From: an uncultured Flavobacteriaceae bacterium
GTDB taxonomy: Bacteria; Bacteroidota; Bacteroidia; Flavobacteriales; Flavobacteriaceae
Assembly: GCA_947495135.1 (NCBI GenBank)
Contig: CANLXN010000001.1
Location: 1 to 64,000, forward strand
Direction: 5' to 3'
DNA length: 64,000 bases
The translations under genes and the position numbers were made by a program. The notes under the pieces are model-generated. The model made no database searches and was not told the origin of the DNA. It worked only from the letters and a program-made list of their open reading frames with translations. Positions 14,030 to 38,426 of the stretch are shown here, in pieces (position 1 is the stretch's first letter; each line of letters starts with the position of its first letter).

Positions 14030-14100
14030 CAAATATGCACCGGTCTTGGAGTATTTCAGAATGAAAAGAGCTGAACTGTTGTAATTTGTGATTGAACTGT
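14030..14100 (-). promoter_or_regulatory. Tandem LytTR-type sites and -7 box (DUF2141 promoter)
   Basis: Minus strand: ACAGTTCAA (14092-14100) and ACAGTTCAG (14071-14079), start-to-start 21 bp, then exactly 33 bp, then CATATTTG (14030-14037) as a -7 box. No good -33 box is seen, as expected for an activator-dependent promoter. The layout is identical to those at 31012, 33283 and 36100. The 9-mers match the known LytTR binding consensus; the regulator is inferred to be the LytTR protein at 37671-38426. Confidence 0.75.
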
Positions 14101-14205
14101 ATAAAAGGAGGGAAATATTGAAATTATGAACGGATCGTCTAACTACAAATAGTTGCCTTATGGTTTTTTAGGAGTTTTAGGTTCAATTTTAACGCACCGC
14201 GAATT

Positions 14206-14279
14206 AACCCAGTGAGTATGATTAAGACAAGCAGCTTTTCATAGTCATTGTCTTACTCGCACTGAAAACTGCCTGGGTT
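14206..14279. other. Extended imperfect hairpin in a 330-bp gap
   Basis: AACCCAG (14206-14212) pairs with CTGGGTT (14273-14279). Alternatively the interior CAGTGAGT (14210-14217) pairs with ACTC..ACTG (14255-14264), and AAGACAA (14224-14230) with TTGTCTT (14248-14254). No T-run follows, so it is not a typical terminator. It may be a structured RNA or the 3' end of the DUF58 operon transcript. The rest of 14101-14316 shows nothing. Confidence 0.4.
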
Positions 14280-14316
14280 CATAAGTTACCTCCAAGATCG
14301 CAGTTTGTAAAGATCA

Positions 14317-15648
14317 TTACAACAAGCCTTTCGCCTTAATCTCTAAGTATTTATTAATGGTGTTTACGGTAAGATCGGCTGGAGCGGTTAGCACCGTTTG
14401 AATGCCTCTTTGTTGAAGTTCTCTCACCATTAATTTTTTATCGAACTCAAATTGCTGAGCGATGGTTTGATCAAAAATCTCTGGAACGTTGGTAGCTTCT
14501 GTTTCGCTAAGGTTTCGCAACTCGGGGTTTTCGAAAAATATAACAACCAGCACATGTCTTTTGGCGATGGCAAGTAAATAGGGAAGTTGCCTTCTCAACG
14601 ACGAAATATGCTCAAAATTAGTATATAACATCAACAAACTACGATGTGTAATACGTCTTCGTATCATTGCTTGTAATAATCCAAAATCGGAATCAAGAAA
14701 CTTAGTATCTGTATTGTAGAGCGTATCTAAAATAGTGTTGAGGTACGTCTTTTTGGCTCGAGCAGGTAGAAAGTTTCCAATTTTATTTGAAAAATCGATA
14801 AGTCCCACCTTATCGCTCTTTTTAAGTGCAATGTTCGAAAATGCCAATGCACTATTGATAGCATAGTCAACTAATTTTAATCCGTCGAACGGCATTTTCA
14901 TTACTCTACTGGTATCAATAATGGTGTAAACGGGTTGCATTTTTTCGTCCTGGTATTGATTCACCATGAGTTGTGCATGTTTTGCAGTGGCTTTCCAGTT
15001 CACCGTGCGCACATCGTCTCCAACCACATATTCTTTGATTTGTTCAAATTCCATGGTATGACCAATTTTCCTGATCTTTTTGAGTCCAATATGTGATAAT
15101 CGGTTATCGATTGCAAGGAAGTCGTATTTCTTCATTTGAATGAATGAAGGATAGACTTTTACCATTTGTTCATTATTAAAAGTATAGCGACGTCTTACAA
15201 GGCCAATTACGGAAGTGGCATAACAGTTCAGCTTTCCGAAGATATACTCACCTCGATCCACTGGTCTTACACTATAGGCATAGGTGCTTCTATCCTTCCC
15301 AGGTATTTTAGTTTTTCTGAAAAAGTCTCTCATTTGAAATTGAACTGGTAGTTCGTCAATGATCGCGACCTCAATATTAAAGGTGTACTTGTTTTGCAAT
15401 TGAATAGCGACTTCATTTTGATCGCTGTTCGAAAATTTTTCTGGAAGAATTCGTTCTCCTTTAACCGAACTACTGCTATAAAGCATTGTAAGTTCTAGAA
15501 GCACTAAAACCGCAAGTGCCAGAACAAAGAGCCATACTATTCCATACAGAGGTGTTGACCAGTTAGAAATGAGAAACAATACTGCAATCACCGTTAGCGC
15601 ATAAAAGAAGCGCGGTGTTACATAAAGCGATTTGAAGAATTTGATCAC
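14317..15648 (-). CDS. DUF58 domain protein (vWA-like)
   Basis: 443 residues. Two N-terminal membrane segments (~15-55) are followed by a beta-rich region and the DUF58 core: EYVVGDDVRTVNWKATAKH (the RxxxWKxxA motif), then a von Willebrand A-like fold with YTIIDTSRVM (modified MIDAS DxS) and KKSDKVGLIDFSN. DUF58 proteins are almost always next to a MoxR AAA ATPase; the pair is thought to work as an ATP-driven, chaperone-like system. It overlaps the moxR stop by 1 bp. Last gene of the six-gene operon. Confidence 0.92.
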   Translation of the reverse strand: MIKFFKSLYVTPRFFYALTVIAVLFLISNWSTPLYGIVWLFVLALAVLVLLELTMLYSSSSVKGERILPEKFSNSDQNEVAIQLQNKYTFNIEVAIIDELPVQFQMRDFFRKTKIPGKDRSTYAYSVRPVDRGEYIFGKLNCYATSVIGLVRRRYTFNNEQMVKVYPSFIQMKKYDFLAIDNRLSHIGLKKIRKIGHTMEFEQIKEYVVGDDVRTVNWKATAKHAQLMVNQYQDEKMQPVYTIIDTSRVMKMPFDGLKLVDYAINSALAFSNIALKKSDKVGLIDFSNKIGNFLPARAKKTYLNTILDTLYNTDTKFLDSDFGLLQAMIRRRITHRSLLMLYTNFEHISSLRRQLPYLLAIAKRHVLVVIFFENPELRNLSETEATNVPEIFDQTIAQQFEFDKKLMVRELQQRGIQTVLTAPADLTVNTINKYLEIKAKGLL

Positions 15649-16682
15649 TATCTCGGAATTTCAATAGATTGAGCGATCATTTCTATAACGGTCTCGGGAG
15701 TCATTCCTTCCATTTCTCGTTCAGGAGATAGAATAATTCTATGACGCAAAACAGGAGCCAGCGTTCGTTTTACATCTTCAGGAGTTACGAAGTCTCTTCC
15801 GTTAATTGCAGCAAAAGCCTTGGAGGCATTCATTATTGCCAAAGAAGCTCTTGGTGAACCTCCTAAATATAAATGTGGATGGTTTCTAGTTTTATCGACT
15901 AATTGAGCGATGTAATTAAAGATTTTATCTTCAATTAAAATTTCTTGCACCTGCGCACGAAGTTTTTTCAATAGACTTGGAGAAAGAACACCAGTGATGG
16001 CATCTTCTGCTATGGCCGATTTTCGATCGTGGTGGGTCTTTAAAATTGTGACTTCTTCTTCCAGTTTAGGATATCCAACTTTAATCTTAAAGATAAAGCG
16101 ATCGAGCTGAGCTTCTGGGAGGGCATAGGTTCCTTCTTGTTCTACTGGATTTTGAGTGGCAAGAACCATAAATGGATAATCCATCTTATATTCATGTCCG
16201 TCCATAGTGATTTGTCGCTCTTCCATTACTTCGAACAAGGCCGCTTGTGTCTTAGCAGGTGCACGATTAATTTCGTCGATAAGAACAATATTAGAAAAAA
16301 TAGGTCCCTTTTTGAATTCAAACTCCGACGCCTTCATATTAAGAATAGAAGTACCTAAAACATCACTTGGCATTAAATCTGGCGTAAACTGGATTCGATT
16401 GAACGCTGTTTTTAAGGTTTTAGCGAAGAGCTTAGCAGTGATGGTTTTAGCAATTCCAGGAACACCTTCTATAAGCACATGCCCGTTAGCAAACAAGCCA
16501 ACAATAAGGAGTTCTATAAATTCTTCTTGCCCAATAATAATCTTTCCAAGCTGTAATTTGATGGCTTCAACAGCGCTTTTTAGCTCCTCTAACGGAATCC
16601 GATTGTTGAATTGTAAATCTTGGTTCTGATTTTCTGGATTCGTGTTTTCTATAGGATTTGTATTTTCTTCAGGATTTTCCAT
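15648..16682 (-). CDS. MoxR family AAA ATPase
   Basis: 344 residues; AAA_3 (MoxR) ATPase. Walker A GVPGIAKT and Walker B IVLIDEINRAP are intact, as are sensor 1 LATQNPVEQEGTY and the C-terminal lid GGSPRASLAIMNASKA with the conserved GxSPRA. The N-terminal ~20 residues are an Asn/Glu-rich low-complexity tail. MoxR ATPases act with DUF58/vWA partners to remodel or mature other proteins. Translationally coupled to the genes on both sides (14-bp overlap upstream, 1-bp downstream). Confidence 0.95.
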   Translation of the reverse strand: MENPEENTNPIENTNPENQNQDLQFNNRIPLEELKSAVEAIKLQLGKIIIGQEEFIELLIVGLFANGHVLIEGVPGIAKTITAKLFAKTLKTAFNRIQFTPDLMPSDVLGTSILNMKASEFEFKKGPIFSNIVLIDEINRAPAKTQAALFEVMEERQITMDGHEYKMDYPFMVLATQNPVEQEGTYALPEAQLDRFIFKIKVGYPKLEEEVTILKTHHDRKSAIAEDAITGVLSPSLLKKLRAQVQEILIEDKIFNYIAQLVDKTRNHPHLYLGGSPRASLAIMNASKAFAAINGRDFVTPEDVKRTLAPVLRHRIILSPEREMEGMTPETVIEMIAQSIEIPR

Positions 16683-17889
16683 CTATCTTCTTTTTATACT
16701 TAGTAAGTTCTATGTTTAATTTCACTAGCTCGTCCGGACTAGTTTCGTGTTGATGTTGTATTTTTTCAATAAATGTGAAGAGGTCTTTTGTGTCTTCAAA
16801 TGTATTTCCACTTCTCGCAGCCACCGCTTTCATAAATCGGACATCTACTTTTTCGGTGGGAATACGTAGCTTGGTTCTAATATACTCCATAAACAGTGTA
16901 ATTTGTTTCTGCGCAATGGAGTGATGTTCATTTTTTTCAAGATACATACCCGCGATGGTCTGGGTGTATTCGAAGGTCTTATTGGAGAGAGGTGTCACAA
17001 TTGGGATGCTGCGCTGTTTCCGTTTTCCTTCAAACAAAACAAAAATAAACACTCCAATTAGAAGAAAGTAATAGGACCATTTTAACCTTTCATTATTTAA
17101 AAGAATGTAAAGAGGGGAAACCTGTATTGGCTTACCAGATTTGTAATGATTGTCCCACAATAACGGCTCGTTTTGATCTAAATAGGAGAGGACACCTTCT
17201 GTGTAACTTAAGTTTTCTTCTTCTTCAAGCAGAAAATAATTGGAAAATACCTCCGGTTGGTTGTGGAAAAAAATAGTTCCATCTCCTATTGGAGCTTTCA
17301 AGAAATTAATTTTCGGTTCTTTTAATACTGTTGTGTCTTGAAAAGCCTCCACAACTCCAAGAGCCACATGTGATAAAGTATCTACTTCTCGAAAGTGCCG
17401 AACAGGGAAATTTCGTTTTATATGATACGGTTTATTTGTTTTTAGATTTTCATTTACCAGCTCAAAGAATGGTTCTGTACCTAATTCTGTAAATAAAAGT
17501 CCATCAGTAACCTCTAGAGAAAGCGAATCGATAAGGCCAGGAGAGTGGTAGTTTGCGGACAGAAATAGAGTGTTTCCCCGGCCTACCCAATCTAATAGTC
17601 TATCAACTTCAGTATCGTCAAAATAAAGTCGGTCGTTTACAAAAAAATAAGTTCCCACAAGAGCAGTATCTAATAGGATCTCAAATGGAGGACGGTTTTG
17701 TTCCATCATGTTATCTCCAAATTTTTCTTTTAAGAGATCATGAAAAACATACGATCCTAAAGGAATCTTATCGGTAGCAGAATAACTTGGAAACCAATTA
17801 ATAGGATGTGGACGAGTTGCTTCTGCATAGATCATCGCTCCAACAATAAGTAGGAATCCAAAGAATACTATTTTTTGAAGCTTAGTCAA
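16669..17889 (-). CDS. DUF4350 domain membrane protein
   Basis: 406 residues, with a TTG start at 17889 overlapping the DUF4129 stop by 8 bp; no ATG lies near enough to keep the N-terminal membrane anchor (IVFFGFLLIVGAMIYA). DUF4350 core: PSYSATDKIPLGSYVFHDLL and LDWVGRGNTLFLSANYH. A second membrane segment is at ~275-293 (WSYYFLLIGVFIFVLFEG), followed by a cytoplasmic helical tail (FEYTQTIAGMYLEKNEH). Family function unknown; it is a steady partner of MoxR/DUF58 operons. Confidence 0.88.
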   Translation of the reverse strand: MTKLQKIVFFGFLLIVGAMIYAEATRPHPINWFPSYSATDKIPLGSYVFHDLLKEKFGDNMMEQNRPPFEILLDTALVGTYFFVNDRLYFDDTEVDRLLDWVGRGNTLFLSANYHSPGLIDSLSLEVTDGLLFTELGTEPFFELVNENLKTNKPYHIKRNFPVRHFREVDTLSHVALGVVEAFQDTTVLKEPKINFLKAPIGDGTIFFHNQPEVFSNYFLLEEEENLSYTEGVLSYLDQNEPLLWDNHYKSGKPIQVSPLYILLNNERLKWSYYFLLIGVFIFVLFEGKRKQRSIPIVTPLSNKTFEYTQTIAGMYLEKNEHHSIAQKQITLFMEYIRTKLRIPTEKVDVRFMKAVAARSGNTFEDTKDLFTFIEKIQHQHETSPDELVKLNIELTKYKKKIDGKS

Positions 17890-18646
17890 TTGTTTTCGGG
17901 ATATTATGTTCTAATTGGACAAAGGTGTTTTGCGCTTTTCTGAAATCGGTTGGTGTCACTTCAAAGCTACCATACCATATGTAATCGTATAGATTGGTTA
18001 CTTTTCTAAAGCCCAAATTGAGCTTTTCGGAATTGATTTCATTGGTATATTCACTATTGGTTTTATCGAATTCGTAGTCTATAATTTCGGCTTCTGTTAG
18101 TCTTTTTAAAATAAGTAGGTAATAGTATCGAACGGCCAATCTATAATCTTCATCTAAGAGTGCTTTATCTATGAGCTTTTGAATGTCTCCAGTTCTTATA
18201 ATTTCCTCTTCTTCAGTAAAGAATACACCAGGTTGTTCCTTGCTCTTAAGCATGCGAGCTCCAGGATTCATTTTATAAAAAAGCCAGACAATGAAAACTA
18301 TAAGTGTACCAAGAATTAGGTAGGGAGCAATGGTTAATAAAAAAGATACAAATCCTCCAACACTATTTAGGTCACCCAAAAGCCATTCCCAAAACCGATA
18401 CCACATGCGAGAAATCCAGTTGGTAAATTTACTCCACCAGCCATCTTCCTCATTGAGTTCGGTATAGTCGAAATCTGGATCATCTTTGTATTTGTCCAGT
18501 GTTTCTGTATCCAGTTTTAAAGGTGTGATAGCCCCATCCTCGTCGTATTGAACCGTCTCCTGAGAGATGGGTTCTGTGGCTTCTTGGGAACGAATTCCTT
18601 CAGAAACACAAAAAACGAAAATGATGAAGAGTAAAACCTTGCGCAT
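17882..18646 (-). CDS. DUF4129 domain membrane protein
   Basis: 254 residues. Signal peptide MRKVLLFIIFVFCVSEG, an acidic periplasmic stretch, a Trp-rich segment (WWSKFTNWISRMWYRFWEWL), a membrane helix (~106-124, APYLILGTLIVFIVWLFYKM) and a C-terminal cytoplasmic DUF4129 domain (DYRLAVRYYYLLILKRL, then KLNLGFRKVTNLYDYIWYG). DUF4129 is often fused to transglutaminase-like proteins and accompanies MoxR/DUF58. Role unknown. Confidence 0.88.
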   Translation of the reverse strand: MRKVLLFIIFVFCVSEGIRSQEATEPISQETVQYDEDGAITPLKLDTETLDKYKDDPDFDYTELNEEDGWWSKFTNWISRMWYRFWEWLLGDLNSVGGFVSFLLTIAPYLILGTLIVFIVWLFYKMNPGARMLKSKEQPGVFFTEEEEIIRTGDIQKLIDKALLDEDYRLAVRYYYLLILKRLTEAEIIDYEFDKTNSEYTNEINSEKLNLGFRKVTNLYDYIWYGSFEVTPTDFRKAQNTFVQLEHNIPKTID

Positions 18647-18647
18647 A

Positions 18648-19526
18648 TTATTCTTCTCTTTTTCCTAGAGATTCTATGGTTTCAATGGTTCCAGTAAAGT
18701 TCTTCTTTTCGTTGAGATTGAAATAAATAAATGCCGAAGTGAGTACCATAAATGTATAAAGCAGATATTGTCCTATAACAGAGATTACATTTAAGATGAT
18801 ATACCCAATATCGAACATTTCGGAAGGGTCGTTAGAGATGGTTTCAATATTCATGAACTGATTACCAAGAGAATAAATAGTTGCAGGAACTTGAAATATC
18901 AACGTAAACAAATAGTAAACAATCCCTGCGACCAATAGGGTTGCAAAGGTAATCCACCATTCTCCTTTAATAAGTTCAAAACAATAACTGATGGAGTCTG
19001 TTACCGACCTGTTCTCGAATACGTATACTCCGTAGACTGCGAATAGAACTGTTCCTAGATAGATTCCTGGGATTCCACATAGTGCTAGTCCAAATCCAAC
19101 CATGATGGTAGTAAGACTACTCATTCCTATAAGTCCCCAAAACTTTTCCTTTAGGTTATTTCCTACTTCTTCTTTATTGATTTCTCCGTTATTGTTCATA
19201 TACGATTTAATCGAGAACATAACTACACCGTAAAGAAGGCCGTAATATGCCACGATGCTTATGAATAGAAAAAGAATGGCGATGAGCATTACAATCATGG
19301 TATCGAAGGAAGGTTGTGAACCAAAGTCACCATACAGATTTTCCATAAACCCACTAATACCTTGGATATAGACAATAAATGATAGCACTAGTATAAGTAA
19401 GGCTGGACCAGCATATTTCAGAATAAGGCCAAAAAGAACTTTCCAATTAAGACGAAGGAACTTAAAAACATCTCCAAGGATGCCACCAAGTTCCCTTTGC
19501 TGTTTAAATTGTATCATTTCTTTCAT
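18648..19526 (-). CDS. Polytopic membrane protein of the MoxR/DUF58 operon
   Basis: 292 residues with about six membrane segments (~30-55, 75-105, 125-160, 190-215, 240-265). It begins MKEMIQFKQQRELGGILGDVF, and either M1 or M4 could be the start because both overlap the SpoIIM-like gene (23 or 14 bp). It has FKFLRLNWKVLFGLILKYAG, common to the equivalent gene in other flavobacterial operons of this type. No catalytic motif was seen. It is 1 bp upstream of the DUF4129 gene, so co-translated. Confidence 0.8.
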   Translation of the reverse strand: MKEMIQFKQQRELGGILGDVFKFLRLNWKVLFGLILKYAGPALLILVLSFIVYIQGISGFMENLYGDFGSQPSFDTMIVMLIAILFLFISIVAYYGLLYGVVMFSIKSYMNNNGEINKEEVGNNLKEKFWGLIGMSSLTTIMVGFGLALCGIPGIYLGTVLFAVYGVYVFENRSVTDSISYCFELIKGEWWITFATLLVAGIVYYLFTLIFQVPATIYSLGNQFMNIETISNDPSEMFDIGYIILNVISVIGQYLLYTFMVLTSAFIYFNLNEKKNFTGTIETIESLGKREE

Positions 19527-20475
19527 AAGTTTTCTTTAGTTTAATGGGGTATATAACGTAATAATATAGAATTAAAAATAAGGACCCTCCAATGATAATA
19601 ATTGCTAGCCAATCTGGCATTTCGGTATGTCTTGTTACAAATCCTTCTAGAAATCCTGCAATAATAAAGAATGGTATAGTACTTATCAATATTTTAACTC
19701 CATCTTTTGCTCCTCTAACAAAAGATTGTACTCTGGTATAGGTTCTTGGAAATAAAATACTATTACCCATCACTAAACCAGCGCATCCAGCGATAATAAT
19801 GACCGAAATTTCTATGGTTCCATGGATCCAGATGGTACGCGCACTTTCCCATAACAGGCCTTGGTCGTAAAAGAAATACTGAAATGACCCTAGCATAATG
19901 GCATTTCTCATCAAAATGAAGAGGGTGCCTACACTAAGAAAAAGACCATATGCAAATGCCAATAACGCGACTCGAATATTATTTACCGTAATCCCTAAAA
20001 ACATATTTAGTTCTCCCATGTCCTTGTAAACCGCCATAGGATCACCGTTATCGATATTATCTAGTGTCATATTCACATAGCCGTCTCCAAGGATGAGTCT
20101 TACAAAATCACCATCTGTTGCAGCAGAGTAGGCACCAATAATGCTAAATAACATAAAAGTTAAAAAAGCAATAAGAAGTTGTCTGTGGTATTGAGAAAAG
20201 AAGAGTGGAAATTCTTTGGTGTAAAAAGTAATTAGACGATTACGCGATTCTCTTTTTGTTTTATAAATCTTTTGATGCGCTAAAACGGAGAGCCCGTTTA
20301 AGTACCTCAGTGTGTTGCTATTCGGATAAAAAGTTTGGGCATAGCTGAGGTGATCGGTTACTTCCACGTAAAGTGAACTTAACTCGTCTGGTGAAACCTG
20401 AATATTATTCTTAAGAACACTTTCAAATCTTAACCATTTGTCTTTATTTTGTTTTGCAAAAGCAGCTTCGCGCAT
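19504..20475 (-). CDS. Stage II sporulation protein M-like (DUF95) membrane protein
   Basis: 323 residues. A cytoplasmic helical N-terminus (REAAFAKQNKDKWLRFESVL) precedes five or six membrane helices. DUF95/SpoIIM features include FLGITVNNIRVALLAFAYGLF (N-N-x-R-V motif), WIHGTIEISVIIIAGCAGLVMG and PRTYTRVQSFVRGAKDGVKI. SpoIIM acts in peptidoglycan remodelling in sporulating bacteria, but this family is widespread in non-sporulators with MoxR/DUF58 genes. First gene of the minus-strand operon and divergent from the RDD gene, whose ATG is only 33 bp away. Confidence 0.9.
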   Translation of the reverse strand: MREAAFAKQNKDKWLRFESVLKNNIQVSPDELSSLYVEVTDHLSYAQTFYPNSNTLRYLNGLSVLAHQKIYKTKRESRNRLITFYTKEFPLFFSQYHRQLLIAFLTFMLFSIIGAYSAATDGDFVRLILGDGYVNMTLDNIDNGDPMAVYKDMGELNMFLGITVNNIRVALLAFAYGLFLSVGTLFILMRNAIMLGSFQYFFYDQGLLWESARTIWIHGTIEISVIIIAGCAGLVMGNSILFPRTYTRVQSFVRGAKDGVKILISTIPFFIIAGFLEGFVTRHTEMPDWLAIIIIGGSLFLILYYYVIYPIKLKKTYERNDTI

Positions 20476-20508
20476 GGTGAGCGGTATTTGTTCAAAGAAA
20501 CAGATTTA

Positions 20509-21842: not shown

Positions 21843-21847
21843 TAAAA

Positions 21848-21880
21848 CAACCCGAACAATTTGTTCGGGTTGCCATTTTT
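21848..21880. terminator. Perfect terminator between TRIC and T9SS genes
   Basis: A 12-bp perfect inverted repeat, CAACCCGAACAA (21848-21859) with TTGTTCGGGTTG (21861-21872), followed by a T-rich tail. It serves the two convergent genes. Confidence 0.85.
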
Positions 21881-21897
21881 CTTTTTCAAATTTCATT

Positions 21898-22431: not shown

Positions 22432-22436
22432 GATGT

Positions 22437-24018: not shown

Positions 24019-24020
24019 TA

Positions 24021-29053: not shown

Positions 29054-29056
29054 AAA

Positions 29057-29656: not shown

Positions 29657-29727
29657 GGCAGGTTGTTTTGTGCTTCTAAGATACTAATTTGGAAACTAAA
29701 TTCCCCTTCGTTTTTTACAATAAGAAT

Positions 29728-29755
29728 AAAAACCTGCCATAAATGACAGGTTTTT
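29728..29755. terminator. Hairpin terminator
   Basis: AAAAACCTG (29728-29736) pairs with CAGGTTTTT (29747-29755) around a 10-base loop. It lies between two minus-strand genes and ends the DUF1028 gene transcript. Confidence 0.75.
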
Positions 29756-29776
29756 AGCTCTATTTTTTTAGTACTC

Positions 29777-30784: not shown

Positions 30785-31011
30785 AGCACGAATTTTTATA
30801 AAGATATGGAATTTTGGTAATGGATACGTTAGAGGTGAGAAGCTCGATACAAGAACAGGAAAATAACTTGGGAGTAGGGAGCAAGCAGAAAGAAATAAGA
30901 AGAGTGTAGAATTAGTTTGTTATTTTGAAAGCACATAGAAAATAAAACGGTCGCGAAACTATAAAACCCGATCCCAAAATTTTTAATTATCATCTCACGT
31001 CTCATATAAAA

Positions 31012-31082
31012 ACAATTCAGTCCCTTTTAATTACAGTTCAGTATTATTTTTACTGAAGTTTAAATAGATCATCGCATTTTTG
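31012..31082 (+). promoter_or_regulatory. Tandem LytTR-type sites and -7 box (TonB receptor promoter)
   Basis: ACAATTCAG (31012-31020) and ACAGTTCAG (31033-31041), 21 bp apart, then 33 bp, then CATTTTTG (31075-31082), a -7 box 26 bp before the ATG. The layout matches those at 14030, 33283 and 36100 base for base in spacing. A 7-bp inverted repeat TTCAGTA/TACTGAA (31037-31057) overlaps the second site. Sequences 30785-31011 are otherwise featureless. Confidence 0.75.
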
Positions 31083-31108
31083 AGCCATCAAACACAATCA
31101 ATCATACC

Positions 31109-33283
31109 ATGAAGATTCACAACCAACTAAACAGATCTATTTTAATTGCCCTTATTATAATGCTATTGCCAACACTAGTTTTGGCTCAAACCGAAGTGTC
31201 AGGAATCGTTACTGCCAAGAATGGAACTCCTATTTTTGGGGCAAACGTATACCTCGATGGGACCTACGATGGAGCTTCGACCGATATGGAGGGTAAGTTC
31301 ACTTTTGAAACGGAAGAAACAGGTGTTCAAACTTTAATGGTTTCTTACGTGGCTTACGAACCTTTTATGATGGCGGCAGATGTTTCTCAATTCAAGAATA
31401 TTTCAGTAGAACTAAGAGAAGATGTAAATTCTTTGGATGCAGTAGTGATATCTGCGGGAACTTTTGAAGCAGGGGACAATAGTAAGGTGTCTGTCCTTAA
31501 ACCATTAGATGTGGTGACTACGGCAAGTGCTCTGGGAGATTTTGTTGGAGCCTTGCAAACGCTGCCTGGGACGACTACTGTAGCAGAAGATGGACGTTTA
31601 TTTGTGAGAGGTGGAGATGCTGGAGAAACTCAAATTTTTATTGATGGCGTTCGTGTATTTACTCCCTACTCACCAACGACTAACAATGCACCAACTCGAG
31701 GAAGGTATAGTCCGTTTTTATTTGACGGAATTACGTTTTCTACTGGGGGCTATTCGGCAGAATATGGGCAAGCACTTTCTTCTGTACTTCTTTTAAATAC
31801 CATTGATGAACCAGATCAGGAAAAGACAGATATTTCTATTATGAGCGTAGGTGCGGGTCTTGGAAATACGCAAAAGTGGGAAAAAAGTTCGCTAAGTTTT
31901 AATGCAAATTACATAAGCCTTGCTCCTTATGTAGCGGTATTCCCCAATAGAAATGATTGGGAAAAACCTTTTGAAACGTTCTCGGGTGAGACCGTATTTC
32001 GCAGAAAATTTGACAATGGGATTTTTAAGTTCTACGCAGCTTTTGATGCTTCAAATTTTAAATTAACTCAAGAGGACATCAATCTTCCAGAAGGATTGAG
32101 GTTTAGATTAAAAAATAAGAATCTCTATACCAACGCAAGTTATAGTGGGTCGTTAGGGAATAGTTGGAAAATAAATGCAGGGGCAAGTTTGACGCATGCA
32201 AATAATGAAATAGGCGTGGGGGAAAATGATATTGACAATATTGAAAACTCTGCCCACTTTAAATTAAAACTACGGAAGCGTTTTAGTAACCGTGTGAAGT
32301 TAACAGTAGGTGCTGAGCAATTTTTAACCGATTTCGTAGAGGATTTTGAAAACCCTTTTGCCGAAGCACGATATGGCTTCAATAACGGGATTAGTGCGGT
32401 ATTTTCGGAAGCCGATTTTGTATTTTCAAGAAAGCTGGCCATGAAAGTAGGAGCACGTGGAGAGTATAGCGATTTATTTAATGATTTTACATTTTCTCCT
32501 AGAGCGTCGATTGCCTATAAAACGGGCAAATCTAGTCAGGTTTCTATTGCGTATGGAGATTTCTTTCAGCAGCCATTTAATGATATTTTAAAATTTCAGC
32601 AGGAGTTAGAAGCACAAAAGACGCAGCACTATATCCTTAATTATCAGTATTCAGCCAACAGTCGGATTTTTAGAGTGGAGGCCTATCATAAAAAGTATAG
32701 CAATTTAATTACGTACGATACAGAGTTTCCTAGTTTTGATAGTAGTTATGGAAACAACGGAGATGGATATGCACGGGGAATTGATCTTTTTTGGAGAGAT
32801 AATAACAGTATTAAGAATATAGATTACTGGGTGAGTTATTCGCTTTTAGATAGTGAGCGAGCGTATCTCAATTTTCCAACGGCGGCTACTCCTTCGTTCG
32901 CTAATACTCATAATTTTTCAGTAGTAGGTAAATACTTTTTGGCAGATTGGAAGAGCCAGTTTGGATTGAGTTATCAATATGCCAGTGGTAGAAGCTATAC
33001 AAACCCGAATGAACCAGGTTTCTTGCAAGAGAAGACGAGAGATTTTAATAGTTTGAGTTTAAACTGGGCTTATCTTATTTCACAACAAAAAATTCTCTAT
33101 GTTTCTGTGAACAATGTTCTTGCCTTTAAAAATATTAATGGTTACCAATACGCAAATACCCCAGATGTAAATGGTAATTTTAATAGAAGAGGATTACAGC
33201 CAGCAACCGATCAGTTCTTCTTTGTCGGTTTCTTTTGGACCATTAGTGATGATGGAACCGATAACCAGTTGGATAACTTATAA
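31109..33283 (+). CDS. TonB-dependent receptor with carboxypeptidase-like domain
   Basis: 724-residue outer-membrane receptor. Signal peptide (~25), a CarboxypepD_reg-like domain (~28-110, VSGIVTAKNGTPIFGANVYL, GKFTFETEETGVQTL), a plug domain (~115-230, LGDFVGALQTLPGTTTVAEDGRLFVRGGDAGETQIFIDGVRVF) and a 22-strand beta-barrel ending DGTDNQLDNL. It lacks the SusC signature length (~1000 residues) and has no SusD partner, so it probably imports a small metal chelate or other ligand, not a polysaccharide. It leads the TonB-DUF2141-histidine kinase cluster and carries tandem LytTR sites at its promoter. Confidence 0.92.
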   Translation: MKIHNQLNRSILIALIIMLLPTLVLAQTEVSGIVTAKNGTPIFGANVYLDGTYDGASTDMEGKFTFETEETGVQTLMVSYVAYEPFMMAADVSQFKNISVELREDVNSLDAVVISAGTFEAGDNSKVSVLKPLDVVTTASALGDFVGALQTLPGTTTVAEDGRLFVRGGDAGETQIFIDGVRVFTPYSPTTNNAPTRGRYSPFLFDGITFSTGGYSAEYGQALSSVLLLNTIDEPDQEKTDISIMSVGAGLGNTQKWEKSSLSFNANYISLAPYVAVFPNRNDWEKPFETFSGETVFRRKFDNGIFKFYAAFDASNFKLTQEDINLPEGLRFRLKNKNLYTNASYSGSLGNSWKINAGASLTHANNEIGVGENDIDNIENSAHFKLKLRKRFSNRVKLTVGAEQFLTDFVEDFENPFAEARYGFNNGISAVFSEADFVFSRKLAMKVGARGEYSDLFNDFTFSPRASIAYKTGKSSQVSIAYGDFFQQPFNDILKFQQELEAQKTQHYILNYQYSANSRIFRVEAYHKKYSNLITYDTEFPSFDSSYGNNGDGYARGIDLFWRDNNSIKNIDYWVSYSLLDSERAYLNFPTAATPSFANTHNFSVVGKYFLADWKSQFGLSYQYASGRSYTNPNEPGFLQEKTRDFNSLSLNWAYLISQQKILYVSVNNVLAFKNINGYQYANTPDVNGNFNRRGLQPATDQFFFVGFFWTISDDGTDNQLDNL

Positions 33284-33353
33284 CAGTTCAGTCCTTAAAT
33301 TCGACAGTTGGGTAAAACCAATTGTGTAGAATGACCATTTCCGAAGATATTTG
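33283..33353 (+). promoter_or_regulatory. Tandem LytTR-type sites and -7 box (second DUF2141 promoter)
   Basis: ACAGTTCAG (33283-33291, overlapping the last base of the receptor stop codon) and ACAGTTGGG (33304-33312), 21 bp apart, then 33 bp, then GATATTTG (33346-33353), 28 bp before the ATG. Same spacing as the other three sites. It gives the DUF2141-TPR-histidine kinase genes their own controlled promoter downstream of the receptor. Confidence 0.75.
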
Positions 33354-33381
33354 ACTTGTCATTAATTTTAAAACAAACGCC

Positions 33382-33795
33382 ATGCAAACAGTACTCAATT
33401 ATTTAATGCTTTTAGTTACCGGTTTGGTGATGCAAGGGCAGAACAACGTAGAAGTTTCCATCACCAAATTTGATAACAATGAGGGAGTGGTGATGGTTGG
33501 ACTATATAGCGAAGAAGGTCAGTTTTTAAATAAGACCTTTATGAGTTTGACTTCTGAAATTTCCGAAAAGGAAGCTGTCGTAACTTTTACAGATGTACCA
33601 GCGGGATCTTATGCAATCTCTTGCTTCCACGATGAAGACAGCAACGGACAACTGAATATGCGGATGGGAATGTTTCCGTCTGAACCTTATGGTTGTTCTA
33701 ATGGAGCGAAAGGCTTCTTTGGTCCTCCAAAATGGGAAGATGCTGTATTTGAAGTCAAAGAAGGTGAAACGATGAGTGTCGATATTCGACTTTAG
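33382..33795 (+). CDS. Exported DUF2141 protein of the LytTR cluster
   Basis: 137 residues. A short signal sequence (MQTVLNYLMLLVTGLVMQGQ), then DUF2141: VVMVGLYSEEGQFLNK, VTFTDVPAGSYAISCFHDEDSNGQL and GCSNGAKGFFGPPKWEDAVFEVKEG. Paralogue of 13558-13992, with the same promoter type. Possibly periplasmic. The gene lies between the TonB receptor and a histidine kinase, so it may be a signal-transduction or cargo component; its function is unknown. DUF2141 proteins often accompany TonB receptors in flavobacteria. Confidence 0.88.
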   Translation: MQTVLNYLMLLVTGLVMQGQNNVEVSITKFDNNEGVVMVGLYSEEGQFLNKTFMSLTSEISEKEAVVTFTDVPAGSYAISCFHDEDSNGQLNMRMGMFPSEPYGCSNGAKGFFGPPKWEDAVFEVKEGETMSVDIRL

Positions 33796-33870
33796 TGACT
33801 TCGAAAGTCAAGAAGAAGGGAAATATTAATTTTCATCATCAACAAATTATTAAAACTAAATTTATATCTA

Positions 33871-33984
33871 ATGCTCGGAATAATTTTACGTCTACTCGGT
33901 AGGCATAAATCGATTAATGTCCTTTTTTTAGTAAGTGCTGGAGTACTTTGTTTAGGATTGGGACTCAATTTACTTTTAACTTAA
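33871..33984 (+). CDS. 37-residue membrane peptide
   Basis: Short ORF starting MLGIILRLLGRHKSINVLFL and ending SAGVLCLGLGLNLLLT. It has a basic N-terminal third and a single hydrophobic helix. It sits between the DUF2141 gene and the next gene, all on the same strand, in a tightly packed region. No family known. A true small membrane protein is likely given codon regularity, but it could be a chance ORF. Confidence 0.5.
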   Translation: MLGIILRLLGRHKSINVLFLVSAGVLCLGLGLNLLLT

Positions 33985-34015
33985 TAACTTAGTAACTTTA
34001 AATATTTAATTCAAA

Positions 34016-34645
34016 ATGAAAAATTTACTCATTATCGCAATCGCTTTTATCTCATTTACAGGTCTTGCACAGGGCAAATACGAGAAAGGAATGACGAAGG
34101 CATTCGAATTATGGCAGAATGAAAAGCCATGGGAAGCTGCTAATATGTTTGAGCGAATAGCTCAGGCAGAAATGGACAATTGGTTGCCTCCTTTTTATGT
34201 GGCGCAAGTAAATGTCATAAACAGTTTTAACGAAAAAGATGAGACCAAACTAACTGCTCAATTAAAAAAGGCGCAGGACTTTTTAAATGATGCAAAGGCA
34301 TTATCAAAAGACAATGCCGAAATTCTAGTTTTACAAGCGCAATTGTATACGGCTTGGGTGGTCTATGACGGTGCGAAATACGGAATGACGTATTCGCAGA
34401 AAATAGCGCAGCTATATAATGAGGCCTATAAAATTGAGCCAACTAATCCGAGAGTTGCTTTTGGAAAAACAGAATGGGATATGGGGACCGCTCGCTTCTT
34501 TGGGCAAGATACTAGTAAATTTTGTGAGGATCTAAAAAAGGCAGTAGCCTTGTATGAAACTTATGAGCCAAAAGGACCATTTCATCCGCAAGGAGGCGTT
34601 GAATATGCGCGTGGATCGTTGGAGCAGAATTGTAAAGAAGAATAA
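34016..34645 (+). CDS. Exported TPR-like protein preceding the histidine kinase
   Basis: 209 residues. Signal peptide (MKNLLIIAIAFISFTGLAQG). The rest is alpha-helical with TPR-like pairs: KAFELWQNEKPWEAANMFERIAQ, LKKAQDFLNDAKALSKDNAEIL and AQLYNEAYKIEPTNPRVAF. It ends 3 bp before the histidine kinase start. It could sense or scaffold in the periplasm for the kinase; this is inference from position. No catalytic motif. Confidence 0.75.
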   Translation: MKNLLIIAIAFISFTGLAQGKYEKGMTKAFELWQNEKPWEAANMFERIAQAEMDNWLPPFYVAQVNVINSFNEKDETKLTAQLKKAQDFLNDAKALSKDNAEILVLQAQLYTAWVVYDGAKYGMTYSQKIAQLYNEAYKIEPTNPRVAFGKTEWDMGTARFFGQDTSKFCEDLKKAVALYETYEPKGPFHPQGGVEYARGSLEQNCKEE

Positions 34646-34648
34646 TCG

Positions 34649-35980
34649 ATGAAGATTTTAAAAGAACTCGGGAAAGCATTTTTTATTGGATCTCTCATAT
34701 TTGTGATATTGGGGGCTGTTCAATTGTTTTCGGGGACTTTTTACCAGAATGGAAAGCAAATTCTAGTTGCTTTTATTTATAATCAAGTCTATTCGGTAGC
34801 CTTGTACATGGCCAATGTTTTCTTGTTCATGCATTTACTGAAAAAATACAAAGGCGAGCTCTTTAAATTTAAAGTGCTCGTTTTTGCTATTTGCGCCGGA
34901 ATCATGATTTCGTTTGTGGTGATTAGTCTTGTGGAGATGTTTTTACAAACCACCTTCGTAGGACTCACTTTTGCCGAGTTTTGGGAGCAGCTAACACCTG
35001 GAGACTATTATATAAGTATGACCATTTCTATGGTTGTAAACACCATATTCTATGTGGTCTTCTATTATAGGTATCGACAAGAGACCACCGTTAAAGAGCA
35101 AAAAATTATTGCAGGAGCCGCTTCGGCGCAGTTTGATGCTTTAAAGAATCAACTCGACCCCCATTTTCTGTTTAATAGTCTCAATGTCCTCACTAGTTTA
35201 ATTGAAGAGAACCCAGAAGCAGCTACTCGCTTTACCACAGCACTTTCGAAGGTGTATCGATATGTCCTTGAACAGAAAAACAAACAATTGGTTACCGTGG
35301 AAGAGGAGTTAAAATTTGCTAAGCTGTATATGTCGCTTATCAAAATGAGGTTTGAAGATAGTATTGTTTATACACCTCCAACTCAGATTTCGAATCCAGA
35401 TGCTAAGGTGGTTCCGCTATCGCTGCAGCTGCTTTTAGAGAACGCTGTTAAGCATAACAAGGTGACCCCAGATAAGAAGCTTTACATCACTATTTATGAA
35501 GAGAACGGCAACCTAGTGATCAAGAATAATGTACAACCTAAAAACGTAATGCGAGAAAGCACAGGAGTAGGTTTACAAAATATTAGAAAACGTTATTATT
35601 TACTAACAGATCGAAAGGTAGCAATAGAACAAAATCAAAAAGAATTTAAAGTTGCAGTACCGCTGCTTACCAAGAATATTTCTTCTGGAATCCCAAAACA
35701 AGAGGCTTATATCTCGAGCAAGAAATACGATAGGGCAAAGAAAAAAGTAGAGGAGTTAAAAGGGTTTTATATTCACTTTTCCATCTATCTTATCATGATT
35801 CCCGTCTTCATTTATCTCAATGTTAAAAGTACTGGATTTCCATGGGCCTTATTTCCAATTTTAGGATGGGGGGCTGGAGTTGCAGGACACGCTATGGAGA
35901 CCTTTAATTACAATCCGTTTTTAGGAAAGAACTGGGAGGAAAGGAAGGTAAGGGAACTCATGGATAAAGATAATAAGTAG
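34649..35980 (+). CDS. LytS-type histidine kinase fused to a 2TM domain
   Basis: 443 residues. Four N-terminal membrane helices (~12-30, 43-62, 76-99, 121-140) with no periplasmic sensor of size. A LytS/YehU-type kinase follows: phosphorylation box NQLDPHFLFNSLN (H172), YRYVLEQKNKQLVTVEEEL, and a short HATPase with LLLENAVKHN and GVGLQNIRKRYYLL. The C-terminal ~85 residues are a 2TM domain (KYDRAKKKVEELKGFYIHFS...FPWALFPILGWG...GKNWEERK) as found in the four following proteins. A kinase-2TM fusion next to free 2TM proteins points to 2TM domains as partners or modulators of the kinase. Confidence 0.92.
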   Translation: MKILKELGKAFFIGSLIFVILGAVQLFSGTFYQNGKQILVAFIYNQVYSVALYMANVFLFMHLLKKYKGELFKFKVLVFAICAGIMISFVVISLVEMFLQTTFVGLTFAEFWEQLTPGDYYISMTISMVVNTIFYVVFYYRYRQETTVKEQKIIAGAASAQFDALKNQLDPHFLFNSLNVLTSLIEENPEAATRFTTALSKVYRYVLEQKNKQLVTVEEELKFAKLYMSLIKMRFEDSIVYTPPTQISNPDAKVVPLSLQLLLENAVKHNKVTPDKKLYITIYEENGNLVIKNNVQPKNVMRESTGVGLQNIRKRYYLLTDRKVAIEQNQKEFKVAVPLLTKNISSGIPKQEAYISSKKYDRAKKKVEELKGFYIHFSIYLIMIPVFIYLNVKSTGFPWALFPILGWGAGVAGHAMETFNYNPFLGKNWEERKVRELMDKDNK

Positions 35981-36099
35981 TTTAGCTGTTAGGTGCTGTT
36001 AAAGGAAATAGTACTCTTTAAACAGACAGATTATGAGTAAGATCTGGATTGAAAAACGGCGACATTCTTTTTAAATTTCATCAATTTATAGCGCTTTCT

Positions 36100-36170
36100 A
36101 CAGTTCATCCTAAGAAAACTACAGCTCGGTTGTTTTCATTGTAACAAAAGACAAAGGAGCAGTACTTTTA
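36100..36170 (+). promoter_or_regulatory. Tandem LytTR-type sites and -7 box (2TM-LytTR operon)
   Basis: ACAGTTCAT (36100-36108) and ACAGCTCGG (36121-36129), 21 bp apart, then 33 bp, then TACTTTTA (36163-36170) as the -7 box, 24 bp before the ATG. The same spacing as the other three. Since the operon encodes the LytTR regulator, this is likely positive autoregulation. This copy is the least consensus-like (second 9-mer and -7 box each vary). Confidence 0.7.
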
Positions 36171-36193
36171 TAGTGTAATTAAAAACATACATT

Positions 36194-36481
36194 ATGGAAT
36201 TTTCAAATAGCAATACCCAACAGTACAGATACCAACGAGCTAAAGAGCAAGTTGATAAAATAAAAGGATTTTACATACATGCCAGTATTTATGCTATCTT
36301 TTGTTTGGTCTTTATTTGGCTAAACTTACAATCGTCTTATTTTCCTTGGGCTATTTTTCCAATCGCAGGATGGGGACTAGGAGTATTAGGGCACGCCTCC
36401 GATACATTTGAGTTTAATTTATTCTTCGGAAAAGACTGGGAGAAGCGCAAGATCGAAGAGATCATGAAGAAGGATGTTTAA
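36194..36481 (+). CDS. 2TM domain protein 1
   Basis: 95 residues, one 2TM domain: an amphipathic entry helix RYQRAKEQVDKIKGFYIHAS, membrane segment 1 (~31-48), a short turn SSYFPWAIFPIAGWGLGVLGHA (segment 2), and an exit FFGKDWEKRKIEEIMKKD. It is almost identical in layout to the C-terminal domain of the histidine kinase at 34649 and probably associates with it. First gene of the 2TM-LytTR operon. Confidence 0.9.
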   Translation: MEFSNSNTQQYRYQRAKEQVDKIKGFYIHASIYAIFCLVFIWLNLQSSYFPWAIFPIAGWGLGVLGHASDTFEFNLFFGKDWEKRKIEEIMKKDV

Positions 36482-36483
36482 TC

Positions 36484-36516
36484 TACTGAAAGTCTAAATC
36501 AATTAAAATTTCAGTA
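36484..36516 (+). other. Inverted repeat between 2TM genes 1 and 2
   Basis: Perfect 8-bp arms TACTGAAA (36484-36491) and TTTCAGTA (36509-36516) around a 17-base loop, followed by seven As. The last two bases of the left arm's flanking sequence touch the stop region of 2TM gene 1. It may be a stem that tunes mRNA stability or partial readthrough between the genes; it lacks a T-run so is not a standard terminator. Confidence 0.55.
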
Positions 36517-36530
36517 AAAAAATAGAAAAC

Positions 36531-36839
36531 ATGGAACTTGAAGACAAAGAAAGCAAATATATGCGCGCTAAAGATCGCGTTAGAGAAATGAAGAAGTTTT
36601 ATACGAGCTTAGGATTCTACGTGGTCTTCATTGGATTTCTTGCCGCACTTAATTATTACACGAACGAATTTAGATATATGTGGTTTTTATGGGCTGCATT
36701 TGGATGGGGAATTGGACTTATTTTTCAGGCACTCAAAGCATTCAATTGGGCCCCGTTCATGAACAAAGACTGGGAAGATCGAAAGATCAAAGAGTTAATG
36801 GATAAGGACGATGAGGTTTCGAATAACCGTTGGAATTAA
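36531..36839 (+). CDS. 2TM domain protein 2
   Basis: 102 residues. KYMRAKDRVREMKKFYTSLGFY then membrane segment 1, loop with NEFRYMWFLWAAFGWGIGLIFQALKAF (segment 2), and NKDWEDRKIKELMDKDDE. It keeps the (K/R)DWE(D/E)RKI exit motif but is more diverged in the membrane part than protein 1. Third element in the same array of 2TM domains. Confidence 0.88.
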   Translation: MELEDKESKYMRAKDRVREMKKFYTSLGFYVVFIGFLAALNYYTNEFRYMWFLWAAFGWGIGLIFQALKAFNWAPFMNKDWEDRKIKELMDKDDEVSNNRWN

Positions 36840-36848
36840 TAAGGAGCT

Positions 36849-37187
36849 ATGGAACCAGAATCTTACCACAAATACGATCGTGCAAAGAAACAAGTGAAGA
36901 AAATCAAAGATTTTTACGATCACATCAAGATTTTTATAGTTGCCGTTGTTGTTATATTAATAATCCGATTCTATGTAGTGCCCAAATTGGGACTAAATTG
37001 GGACGATGAAAAAGATTTTAACAACTGGCTTAACTGGAATACATATCTCTTTCCAAGTATATGGGCACTGGTTATTTTAATCCATGGATTAATCGTTTTT
37101 AAACCGAAAGTCTTCAGGAAATGGGAAGATCGAAAAATGAAAGAATTCATGCAGAAGGAAGATAAAGCTGAACAAAGATGGGATTAG
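36849..37187 (+). CDS. 2TM domain protein 3
   Basis: 112 residues. KYDRAKKQVKKIKDFYDHIK, two membrane segments (~27-42 and ~68-86), and an exit RKWEDRKMKEFMQKED. The loop is longer than in the others (LNWDDEKDFNNWLNWN) and the exit motif has R-K-W-E-D-R-K. A diverged paralogue in the same operon, 9 bp after protein 2. Confidence 0.85.
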   Translation: MEPESYHKYDRAKKQVKKIKDFYDHIKIFIVAVVVILIIRFYVVPKLGLNWDDEKDFNNWLNWNTYLFPSIWALVILIHGLIVFKPKVFRKWEDRKMKEFMQKEDKAEQRWD

Positions 37188-37257
37188 AATTTTGGATAAA
37201 CGAAACCATATTCTAATAAAGACTTTAACATCAATCAAAAATTAAAACGAACTTATT

Positions 37258-37587
37258 ATGGAGCAGTATAATGAAGATAAGCTGAACAAAGCAAAAAAGA
37301 AAGTTAAGGAGATCAAAGGATTTTATTCTCACTTAACCGTATATATTATTATAAATGTTTTTCTAATATTAGCGCAGATGGGACTTTTCACTCCTGGCGG
37401 ACTCAATTGGGGAATGCCTGGATGGGCTTACTTTACCACTCCTTTTTTCTGGGGTATCGGACTTTTCTTTCACGGATTGTACGTGTTTCAGCACAAATTC
37501 AGGTTCTTTAAAGAATGGGAAGAACGCAAGATTAAACAGTACATGGAAAAAGAAGAAGAAGAGTTGAAAAGCACAAAATGGGATTGA
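37258..37587 (+). CDS. 2TM domain protein 4
   Basis: 109 residues. LNKAKKKVKEIKGFYSHLTVY, membrane segment 1 (~28-48), loop GGLNWGMPGWAYFTTPFFWGIGLFFHGL (segment 2), and FKEWEERKIKQYMEKEEEE. Last 2TM protein before the LytTR regulator; gap to the regulator 83 bp, with no terminator. Confidence 0.88.
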   Translation: MEQYNEDKLNKAKKKVKEIKGFYSHLTVYIIINVFLILAQMGLFTPGGLNWGMPGWAYFTTPFFWGIGLFFHGLYVFQHKFRFFKEWEERKIKQYMEKEEEELKSTKWD

Positions 37588-37670
37588 AAAAATCAAAATT
37601 GAAATCTAATATTAGAAACTCGAAGAAAGCTTAATTTTAACGATCAACTATTAACCATTATCACACAACT

Positions 37671-38426
37671 ATGAAAGTCCTTATTATCGAAGATGAAAAA
37701 CCAGCAGCAAGAAGATTACAGCGTATGCTTGACAGACAAAATGTAGCGGTGGATCAAATGTTACATAGTGTGGGAGAGGCGGTAGAATGGTTTTCTAATA
37801 ATGAGCATCCTGACCTCATATTTTTAGACATACAGTTGAGCGACGGGCTATCTTTTGAAATATTTGATGAGGTTGAGGTGAAAAGCGCGGTAATTTTTAC
37901 AACAGCCTTCGACGAATACGCTTTGCAAGCTTTTAAGCTCAATAGTATCGACTACTTACTAAAGCCAATCGACGAAGAAGAATTGGAGGCAGCCGTAAAC
38001 AAGTTCAAAGAAAGAGTTCCTAAAGCACAAAATCTCCAGCTTAATTTTGACGATATTAAGAAGTTACTCACCAACCCTGTGGAACGGGAATATAAAAAGC
38101 GGTTCACAACTAAGATTGGACAGCATATAAAAATGATTCCTGTGGATGAGATCGAGTGTTTTTATTCTGAAAATAAAGGGACTTATGCACACACCGTGGA
38201 GGGAAGAAATTATTTGCTAGACACTACGTTAGAGCAATTAGAAGAAGAGCTTTCTCCTGAAGTGTTTTTTAGAATCAATCGGAAATTTTACGTGAGTATA
38301 AATTGCATTAAAGATATCATTAGCTATACCAATAGCAGACTTCAATTAAAACTAAATAGTTATAAGGAAGAAGATGTGATCGTAGCTCGAGAACGTGTTC
38401 GTGATTTTAAATTGTGGTTGGAATAA
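37671..38426 (+). CDS. LytTR-family response regulator
   Basis: 251 residues. Receiver domain 1-115: KVLIIEDEKPAARR, phosphoacceptor D53 in PDLIFLDIQLSDG, TTAFDEYALQAF and K-P-I (LLKPIDEEE). LytTR DNA-binding domain ~145-250: KIGQHIKMIPVDEIECFYSENK, then FFRINRKFYVSINCIKDI (LytTR-core). Standard LytR/AlgR-type pairing with the LytS-like kinase at 34649. LytTR proteins bind pairs of 9-mers with 12-13 bp spacers; the four promoters noted above have 12-bp spacers (21 bp start to start), so this protein is inferred to bind them. Confidence 0.95.
   Translation: MKVLIIEDEKPAARRLQRMLDRQNVAVDQMLHSVGEAVEWFSNNEHPDLIFLDIQLSDGLSFEIFDEVEVKSAVIFTTAFDEYALQAFKLNSIDYLLKPIDEEELEAAVNKFKERVPKAQNLQLNFDDIKKLLTNPVEREYKKRFTTKIGQHIKMIPVDEIECFYSENKGTYAHTVEGRNYLLDTTLEQLEEELSPEVFFRINRKFYVSINCIKDIISYTNSRLQLKLNSYKEEDVIVARERVRDFKLWLE

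Follow-up and report, generated by a model that had tools for sequence, protein, structure and literature searches.

A conserved repeat-pair promoter layout around a histidine kinase and LytTR regulator locus in Flavobacteriaceae

Introduction

AgrA of Staphylococcus aureus acts as response regulator in a two-component system, and ComE/BlpR-type regulons consist of competence and bacteriocin genes. We analyzed a stretch of 64,000 nucleotides (the window) from an uncultured Flavobacteriaceae bacterium (assembly GCA_947495135.1, contig CANLXN010000001.1, positions 1 to 64,000 of the forward strand), in which four promoters with the same arrangement of two 9-bp direct repeats and a -7 box accompany genes for a histidine kinase and a LytTR response regulator. 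The streptococcal ComE box strongly resembles this repeat pair in both sequence and spacing. From the sequence comparisons presented below, it is highly probable that the kinase-regulator pair activates the four promoters from just upstream of the -33 element, and with them its own genes.

LytTR regulatory systems (LRS), such as HdrRM and BrsRM of Streptococcus mutans, have 9-bp direct repeats that are mostly 12 bp apart and lie just upstream of the -35 box, with a strong bias to 10 bp between the repeats and the -35 box; 10 bp is also the most frequent distance in other species (PMC6193735). The recognition segment reads FFRCHNS in AgrA and FhRhHRS in a summary of the domain (PMC4227749). Psp/Lia membrane-stress systems repeatedly contain Toastrack domains, and operons that combine LytTR with Toastrack have been noted in Firmicutes (PMC11237479). 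No defined LytTR site or regulon of flavobacteria was described in the literature covered here.

Results

Four promoters share one layout in the window

A preliminary description of the window, made from the letters alone, had proposed that four intergenic regions share the layout 9-mer, 12 bp, 9-mer, 33 bp, and -7 box (nAnnTTT[G/A]). Reading the sequence at these positions bore this out (Table 1), and the arrangement exceeds chance: the pattern ACAGTTCAG-N12-ACAGTTCAG with up to three mismatches had exactly four matches in the 64-kb window, compared with a mean of 0.02 in shuffled windows, and none of 100 shuffles reached four. The four-promoter observation is correct and is stronger than the preliminary description put it. 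Pfam also confirmed the gene names given there (i.e., two DUF2141 proteins, a TonB receptor, 2TM proteins, and a LytTR regulator).

Across all 4.29 Mb of the genome, the pair without the box gave 8 matches with up to three mismatches (2 for a reversed-pattern control), and all three matches with at most two mismatches were window sites. The pair extended by N33-NANNTTTG gave four matches (0 for the control). A genome-wide scan of this kind had been proposed at the outset; it recovered three window sites, dropped the site at 36100 because its box ends in A, and added a site at C16:20192-20262. We also scanned the window with a position weight matrix (PWM) trained on 105 aligned sites, the four window sites included (lowest training score, 34). 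At a print threshold of 10, only these four sites appeared (scores, 42 to 58). Pair matches on C15, C2, and C11 were considered as further targets and rejected: none had a -7 box at 33 bp within three mismatches, and the best PWM score was 13.2 at C2, with no score exceeding 8 at C15 or C11, compared with the lowest training score of 34.

Table 1. Promoter elements and genes of the system in the window. Mismatches are relative to ACAGTTCAG-N12-ACAGTTCAG; predicted +1 positions correspond to column 76 of the 105-site alignment.
Feature	Coordinates	Strand	Remarks
Repeat pair ACAGTTCAA-N12-ACAGTTCAG	14071..14100	minus	Upstream of DUF2141-A; 1 mismatch
-7 box CATATTTG	14030..14037	minus	33 bp past second repeat; predicted +1, 14025
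Repeat pair ACAATTCAG-N12-ACAGTTCAG	31012..31041	plus	Upstream of TonB receptor; 1 mismatch
-7 box CATTTTTG	31075..31082	plus	33 bp past second repeat; predicted +1, 31087
Repeat pair ACAGTTCAG-N12-ACAGTTGGG	33283..33312	plus	Upstream of DUF2141-B, TPR-like gene, and kinase; 2 mismatches
-7 box GATATTTG	33346..33353	plus	33 bp past second repeat; predicted +1, 33358
Repeat pair ACAGTTCAT-N12-ACAGCTCGG	36100..36129	plus	Upstream of 2TM-regulator gene row; 3 mismatches
-7 box TACTTTTA	36163..36170	plus	33 bp past second repeat; predicted +1, 36175
DUF2141-A (PF09912)	13558..13992	minus	Pfam run on 13558-13989; start codon read from sequence; signal-peptide-like start by eye
TonB-dependent receptor (CarbopepD_reg_2, Plug)	31109..33283	plus	Pfam; modelled beta-barrel, mediocre confidence
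DUF2141-B (PF09912)	33382..33795	plus	Pfam; modelled beta-sandwich
209-aa protein	34016..34645	plus	TPR-like and signal-peptide-like start by eye; Pfam, none; recurs in regulon
Histidine kinase (PF06580) with C-terminal 2TM domain (PF13239)	34649..35980	plus	Pfam; downstream of DUF2141-B
Small 2TM protein a (PF13239)	36194..36481	plus	Pfam
Small 2TM protein b (PF13239)	36531..36839	plus	Pfam
Small 2TM protein c (PF13239)	36849..37187	plus	Pfam
Small 2TM protein d (PF13239)	37258..37587	plus	Pfam
Response regulator, Response_reg (PF00072) and LytTR	37671..38426	plus	Pfam; recognition motif FFRINRKF

The spacing is fixed in loci chosen without the motif

LytTR-activated promoters are recognized by two 9-bp direct repeats with a gap of 11 to 13 bp, placed at a fixed distance just upstream of the -35/-33 element. 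Both features were found here, with a gap of 12 bp at all four window sites. We then determined how far this geometry holds in relatives; here and below, the genomes are related, so that the counts lack independence, and some loci are shared between sets (for example, Zobellia uliginosa seems to be present in both sets described next, as L133 and L201). In the first 39 regions, which were chosen mostly by fixed-pattern matches so that the 33-bp result is partly by construction, the -7 box lay at 33 bp in 65 of 66 pairs and at 34 bp in the other; six close pairs had other gaps. Ten Markov replicates of this analysis contained no N12 pair.

Two sets of loci were chosen without regard to the motif. 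Set one comprised the 20 best 2TM places in genomes not already sampled. Its pairs with at most one mismatch had a gap of 12 bp in 15 cases, 21 bp in 2, and any other length from 3 to 30 bp in none; the -7 box lay at 33 bp in 15/15 pairs, and a site with at most two mismatches was present in 16/20 loci. Set two comprised the best 80 of at least 568 regulator relatives in a genome collection. At the same mismatch limit, 64 pairs had a gap of 12 bp and 1 pair fell on all the other gaps from 3 to 30 bp together, the -7 box lay at exactly 33 bp in 64/64 pairs, and 66/80 loci had a site with at most two mismatches.

Rescoring the 18 site-less loci of both sets with the PWM placed nine above 34 (L121, L127, L130, L155, L180, L194, L205, L206, and L215), one at a poor score (L184, 21.7), and eight at no score above 12. 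The retrieved stretch of L118, which had no PWM site, held a small 2TM match only and no regulator; in L138, L153, L170, and L173, also without a PWM site, a kinase/2TM gene was not found in the retrieved stretch (only 2.2 kb upstream for L153). Little sequence lay upstream of the 2TM genes in L192, L200, and L209, and the promoter may be off the contig. L170 and L173 each have a repeat pair with three mismatches just before the regulator gene, followed by a near-miss -7 box at 33 bp.

A de novo period-21 scan for other LytTR genes with the same geometry and other half-sites came to nothing. It was empty in 20 loci whose flanks were too short to carry weight, and in 20 wider regions it gave 5 matches at period 21/offset 33, compared with 6 to 13 at offsets 28 to 32.

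Conserved columns outside the search pattern

The 105 distinct aligned sites came from the window, the 39 regions, and set one, and the 98 sites of set two served as a second sample. In the repeats and the box, conservation follows from the search pattern, which left the first base of the -7 box free. Outside these letters, a T-rich tract occupies columns 40 to 43, 9 bp past the second repeat, and T at column 41 was found in 104/105 sites and in 98/98 of set two. Columns 15 to 18, in the middle of the spacer, are A rich in the 105-site alignment, and T31 was present in 81/105 sites.

Column 76 is a purine in 94/105 sites, in a YYRT context, and in 89/98 sites of set two. With this column as the predicted +1, the first repeat covers -75 to -67 and the second covers -54 to -46 (centre of the pair, -60.5), the conserved T of column 41 falls at -35, and the -7 box lies at -12 to -5. 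A start-site study of F. psychrophilum reported the sigma-A box TAnnTTTG at -12 to -5, in agreement with this +1 (PMC9723704). The box of the relatives is mostly SAnnTTTG: its first base is G or C, not T, in 86/105 sites and in 87/98 sites of set two. Such a non-T first base may mark a weakened core promoter that needs an activator.

Sites precede the same kinds of genes in relatives

The cleanest count of targets comes from 39 loci that were brought in by motif matches alone (10 from the genus and 29 from the family). In other genomes of the genus, all 10 sites precede a homologue of a gene of the window system (i.e., TonB receptor, DUF2141, TPR-like protein, kinase with 2TM domain, or small 2TM protein). 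Such a gene follows 25 of the 29 sites in the family, a Toastrack lipoprotein follows 3, and 1 precedes neither; the totals are 35 window-type genes, 3 Toastrack (DUF2807) genes, and 1 neither. At this last site (L074), a Toastrack gene comes second in the row. A tally of 218 distinct sites with at most two mismatches, biased because it spans all retrieved loci of relatives, many of them centred on the system, gave 58 TPR-like, 52 DUF2141, 48 TonB, 27 small 2TM, 26 kinase or kinase-like 2TM, and 5 Toastrack genes (a class that joined the query set only after being noticed), with 2 sites assigned to no class.

The preliminary description had held that absence of the motif pair upstream of orthologues would count against it. 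In a comparison with related flavobacteria, homologues of all four genes or operons carried the pair upstream in many genera. In L134 (10543-11420), three successive repeat-pair promoters with two mismatches each stand before three small 2TM-type genes, one per gene. Two sites lie in the locus of Zobellia uliginosa, a marine relative.

Head-GIN/Toastrack (DUF2807) genes lie behind sites in several relatives (L096:9130, L066, and L074), with very similar spacers in some genera; where examined (L074 and L096), the near-identical spacers belong to related promoters. The Toastrack genes of the window's own genome were rejected as targets, since none of 10 DUF2807 loci (13 matches in all) had a site of this geometry with up to six mismatches. 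The window itself contains a PspC-Toastrack cluster (6607-9521, minus strand) with a DUF2807 gene, a 600-aa HAAS-PspC-LiaI/LiaF-TM-Toastrack protein, and a PadR regulator, in which the PWM scan of the window found no regulon site.

The layout is widespread in the family and accompanies the regulator locus

With up to three mismatches allowed, the layout was present in all nine genomes of the genus that were searched, among them that of the window (control, 0/9). We then used the degenerate pattern ACARTTSRG-N12-ACARTTSRG-N33-NANNTTTR with at most one mismatch. It was present in 196/299 genomes of the family (175/249 among those of good quality), and the reversed pattern was present in 1/299. 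In a sample of the phylum (n = 198), it occurred in 17/19 family genomes and 3/179 others, with none for the reversed control. In a locus from another family of the class (L262), one site is followed consecutively by genes for a TonB receptor, a TPR-like protein, the kinase, and the regulator, and L260, likewise from outside the family, has a site followed by a small 2TM-like gene, kinase, and regulator. L261 (genome G342, outside the family) was set aside as a chance match, with no system genes within the 14 kb retrieved.

Occurrence of the layout follows that of the locus: 194/225 genomes with at least two 2TM matches have it, compared with 2/74 with one or none (194/31 versus 2/72; Fisher P = 1.5e-41, for genomes that are not independent). 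In G165 (L263), one of the two exceptions, a site, kinase, and regulator stand in a row, and the retrieved stretch contains no separate 2TM match; the site therefore seems to follow the regulator and not the small 2TM genes. Genome size alone is not the cause, because 15 of 16 hand-picked motif-free genomes of 2.7 to 4.4 Mb with at most one 2TM match still hold 1 to 9 LytTR matches.

The recognition segment F(F/Y)Rx(N/S)R(K/T)(F/Y) was found in 124/125 regulators from overlapping sets, and also in those of L260, L262, and L263; a stretch FLDIQL or LLDIQL around Asp53 was likewise found in 124/125. We take Asp53 to be the phospho-acceptor from what is known of the family. The His_kinase partner (PF06580) and receiver Asp (PF00072) that define a LytTR two-component system are both present. 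The 36100 site precedes the 2TM-regulator row, with a similar arrangement in relatives, so that the LytTR gene lies behind a predicted target promoter, as autoregulation would have it. Elsewhere in the genome, C2:358917-359204 contains a LytTR match in a 128-aa open frame (FFRINRRC), with no site (up to four mismatches) in the surrounding 11 kb. FJOH_RS09515/09520 of Flavobacterium johnsoniae are LytTR and kinase genes that mutated across coevolved lines (PMC10197871). They were considered as candidates for this system and set aside, since the order of their tags suggests adjacent genes without intervening 2TM genes.

A probable second circuit of the same geometry

The C16 match lies 38 bp before a row encoding an ABA4-like protein (PF14108), a 266-aa membrane protein, a His_kinase, and a receiver-LytTR protein (G000:C16:17107-20262, L043). 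The membrane protein occurs in 9/120 genomes in all, with a close relative in seven other genomes and a distant eighth match. Three of the seven close orthologues have a geometry-true site with up to four mismatches in the retrieved flank; the other four and the distant one had none at this limit in theirs. The repeats of the three end in A, not G (e.g., ACAATTCAA/ACAATTGAA). On this evidence, which is thin, C16 is most likely a paralogous autoregulated LytTR system with a diverged half-site that shares the 21/33 geometry.

Genes of the system in the window

The kinase and the four small proteins encoded between it and the regulator have the same 2TM domain according to Pfam, and this locus contains five of the genome's six 2TM matches. 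Hydropathy shows four hydrophobic segments ahead of the kinase domain, which suggests four membrane segments. The DUF2141 model (mean pLDDT, 90.7) gave weak beta-sandwich matches to the PDB, with TM scores below 0.5 by query length and none with an E value of 0.001 or less among the matches listed. The TonB receptor model is mediocre (66.9), and PDB sequence searches with the receptor and with DUF2141-B found no match. The regulator matched receiver domains in the PDB, apart from one weak match to the LytTR region (3d6w). A LysR-family regulator gene (12468-13403, minus strand) directly follows DUF2141-A, and a like neighbour follows DUF2141-A in L030, L035, L093, and L096.

Discussion

We infer from their linkage that the membrane histidine kinase with its fused 2TM domain most likely phosphorylates the receiver-LytTR regulator. 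A dimer of the regulator would then bind the direct repeats, which span roughly -75 to -67 and -54 to -46 around a centre near -60. From there it would recruit vegetative RNA polymerase, the core promoter itself being weak and made up of the T-rich -33 element and the -7 box. The genes activated in this way would be those for the TonB receptor, the two probably secreted DUF2141 proteins, the probably secreted TPR-like protein, the kinase, and the putative 2TM-regulator operon. With the kinase and the regulator row among the targets, the circuit would be under positive autoregulation.

Several observations weigh against activation of all four promoters by this pair. The 36100 site is one of five genome matches at exactly three mismatches, and its pair alone is unremarkable genome-wide; moreover, its box starts with T and not with G or C. 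The TonB site of the window is the sole one of 105 without T41. L184 has a kinase and a regulator with a poor site only (PWM score, 21.7), and in 31/225 genomes with at least two 2TM matches the layout was absent when one mismatch was allowed. Five of these 31 were inspected: two had sites with two mismatches, two had PWM-level sites only, and one had no regulator at the retrieved place. Related recognition motifs also occur in other LytTR genes of the genome, namely, FFRINRRC (C2:358917) and FFRTSRQQ (C2:283975).

The last point bears on whether one of these two proteins or the C16 paralogue controls the promoters, alone or by cross-regulation, which we consider unlikely. The genome has 27 LytTR matches, and among 20 loci, three besides the regulator (the two just named and FYKINRGQ) have the N/S-R core; C16 has, in addition, a promoter of the same geometry. 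In 14 of the 19 loci other than that of the regulator, the motif contains His. The sites flank the 2TM-linked regulator, and none with up to four mismatches was found in the regions retrieved around C2:283975 and C2:358917. LytTR matches persist in 15/16 of the picked genomes that lack both the motif and multiple 2TM matches, and the C16 membrane protein is rarer than the layout (9/120 versus 196/299 genomes), with orthologous half-sites, where found, that end in A.

The pair could also be an operator through which the active system shuts the genes off. AgrA also represses bsaA (PMC4227749); even so, we regard repression here as very unlikely, given that the whole pair sits ahead of the -33 element at an invariant spacing and that a -7 box whose first base is mostly not T is consistent with a weak core that depends on an activator. 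Coincidence, or promoter copies spread by a dispersed repeat, might be suspected from the location of three of the four sites within 5.2 kb. The probability of this is negligible: shuffles, reversed patterns, and Markov controls are close to zero, the spacers of the window sites differ while repeats and distances stay fixed, and conservation across the family speaks against it. Activation by the linked kinase and regulator is the reading that we retain.

The physiological role of the system is probably, with less certainty than its regulation, cell-envelope sensing or remodelling, because the targets are of envelope type and relatives have a Toastrack/DUF2807 gene as an extra target. Conceivable, though less likely than not, is a circuit for envelope sensing throughout the family. 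In it, one to four stand-alone 2TM proteins from the regulator's row would pair with the kinase through the common domain and set its output, as a membrane rheostat made of copies of the domain in the sensor itself, and the C16 recognition motif and the last half-site base would have changed together, insulating the two circuits. The evidence for 2TM proteins as modulators is gene order and the common domain. The system is unusual in that it is conserved so widely and rigidly, in its variant of the -7 box, and in that the 2TM domain of the kinase also exists as small neighbouring proteins. The analysis yields a site model, predicted starts, and a candidate regulator for a regulon found in much of the family, and it provisionally places a TonB receptor in one circuit with DUF2141 and 2TM proteins.

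Among known systems, the Lia/Psp systems resemble this one through the Toastrack genes, which in some relatives lie behind promoters of this kind; Pfam found no PspA/LiaH, LiaI-LiaF, or PspC domain in the ten system genes (the genome was not searched for PspA). AgrA is similar in acting at P2/P3 as a dimer on direct repeats centred at about -60 and in targeting its own operon (PMC4227749). The differences from AgrA are the recognition segment (FFRCHNS versus F[F/Y]Rx[N/S]R[K/T] here), the targets, which are envelope-type proteins here, and the peptide quorum-sensing genes, none of which were identified among the system genes.

An LRS, like the circuit proposed here, positively autoregulates its operon, in which a membrane protein is encoded as well; its components are a LytTR regulator and a membrane inhibitor, and it is set apart from two-component systems (PMC6193735). 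No kinase belongs to an LRS, whereas the window encodes a Response_reg regulator and a His_kinase; because receiver and kinase are present, the system is by its domains a LytTR two-component system and not an LRS. The half-sites differ as well, being of types such as ACCACTTAT in LRS and ACARTTSRG in the window system, which has a Bacteroidota -33/-7 core promoter. In LRS promoters, 10 bp, a 6-bp -35 box, and a 17-bp spacer add up to 33 bp from the repeats to the -10 box, the same distance as at the window sites (PMC6193735); therefore, the geometry is not peculiar to this regulon. That it equals the geometry of many published LytTR promoters, with a core promoter of a different shape, suggests that the contact between LytTR proteins and polymerase is old and rigid.

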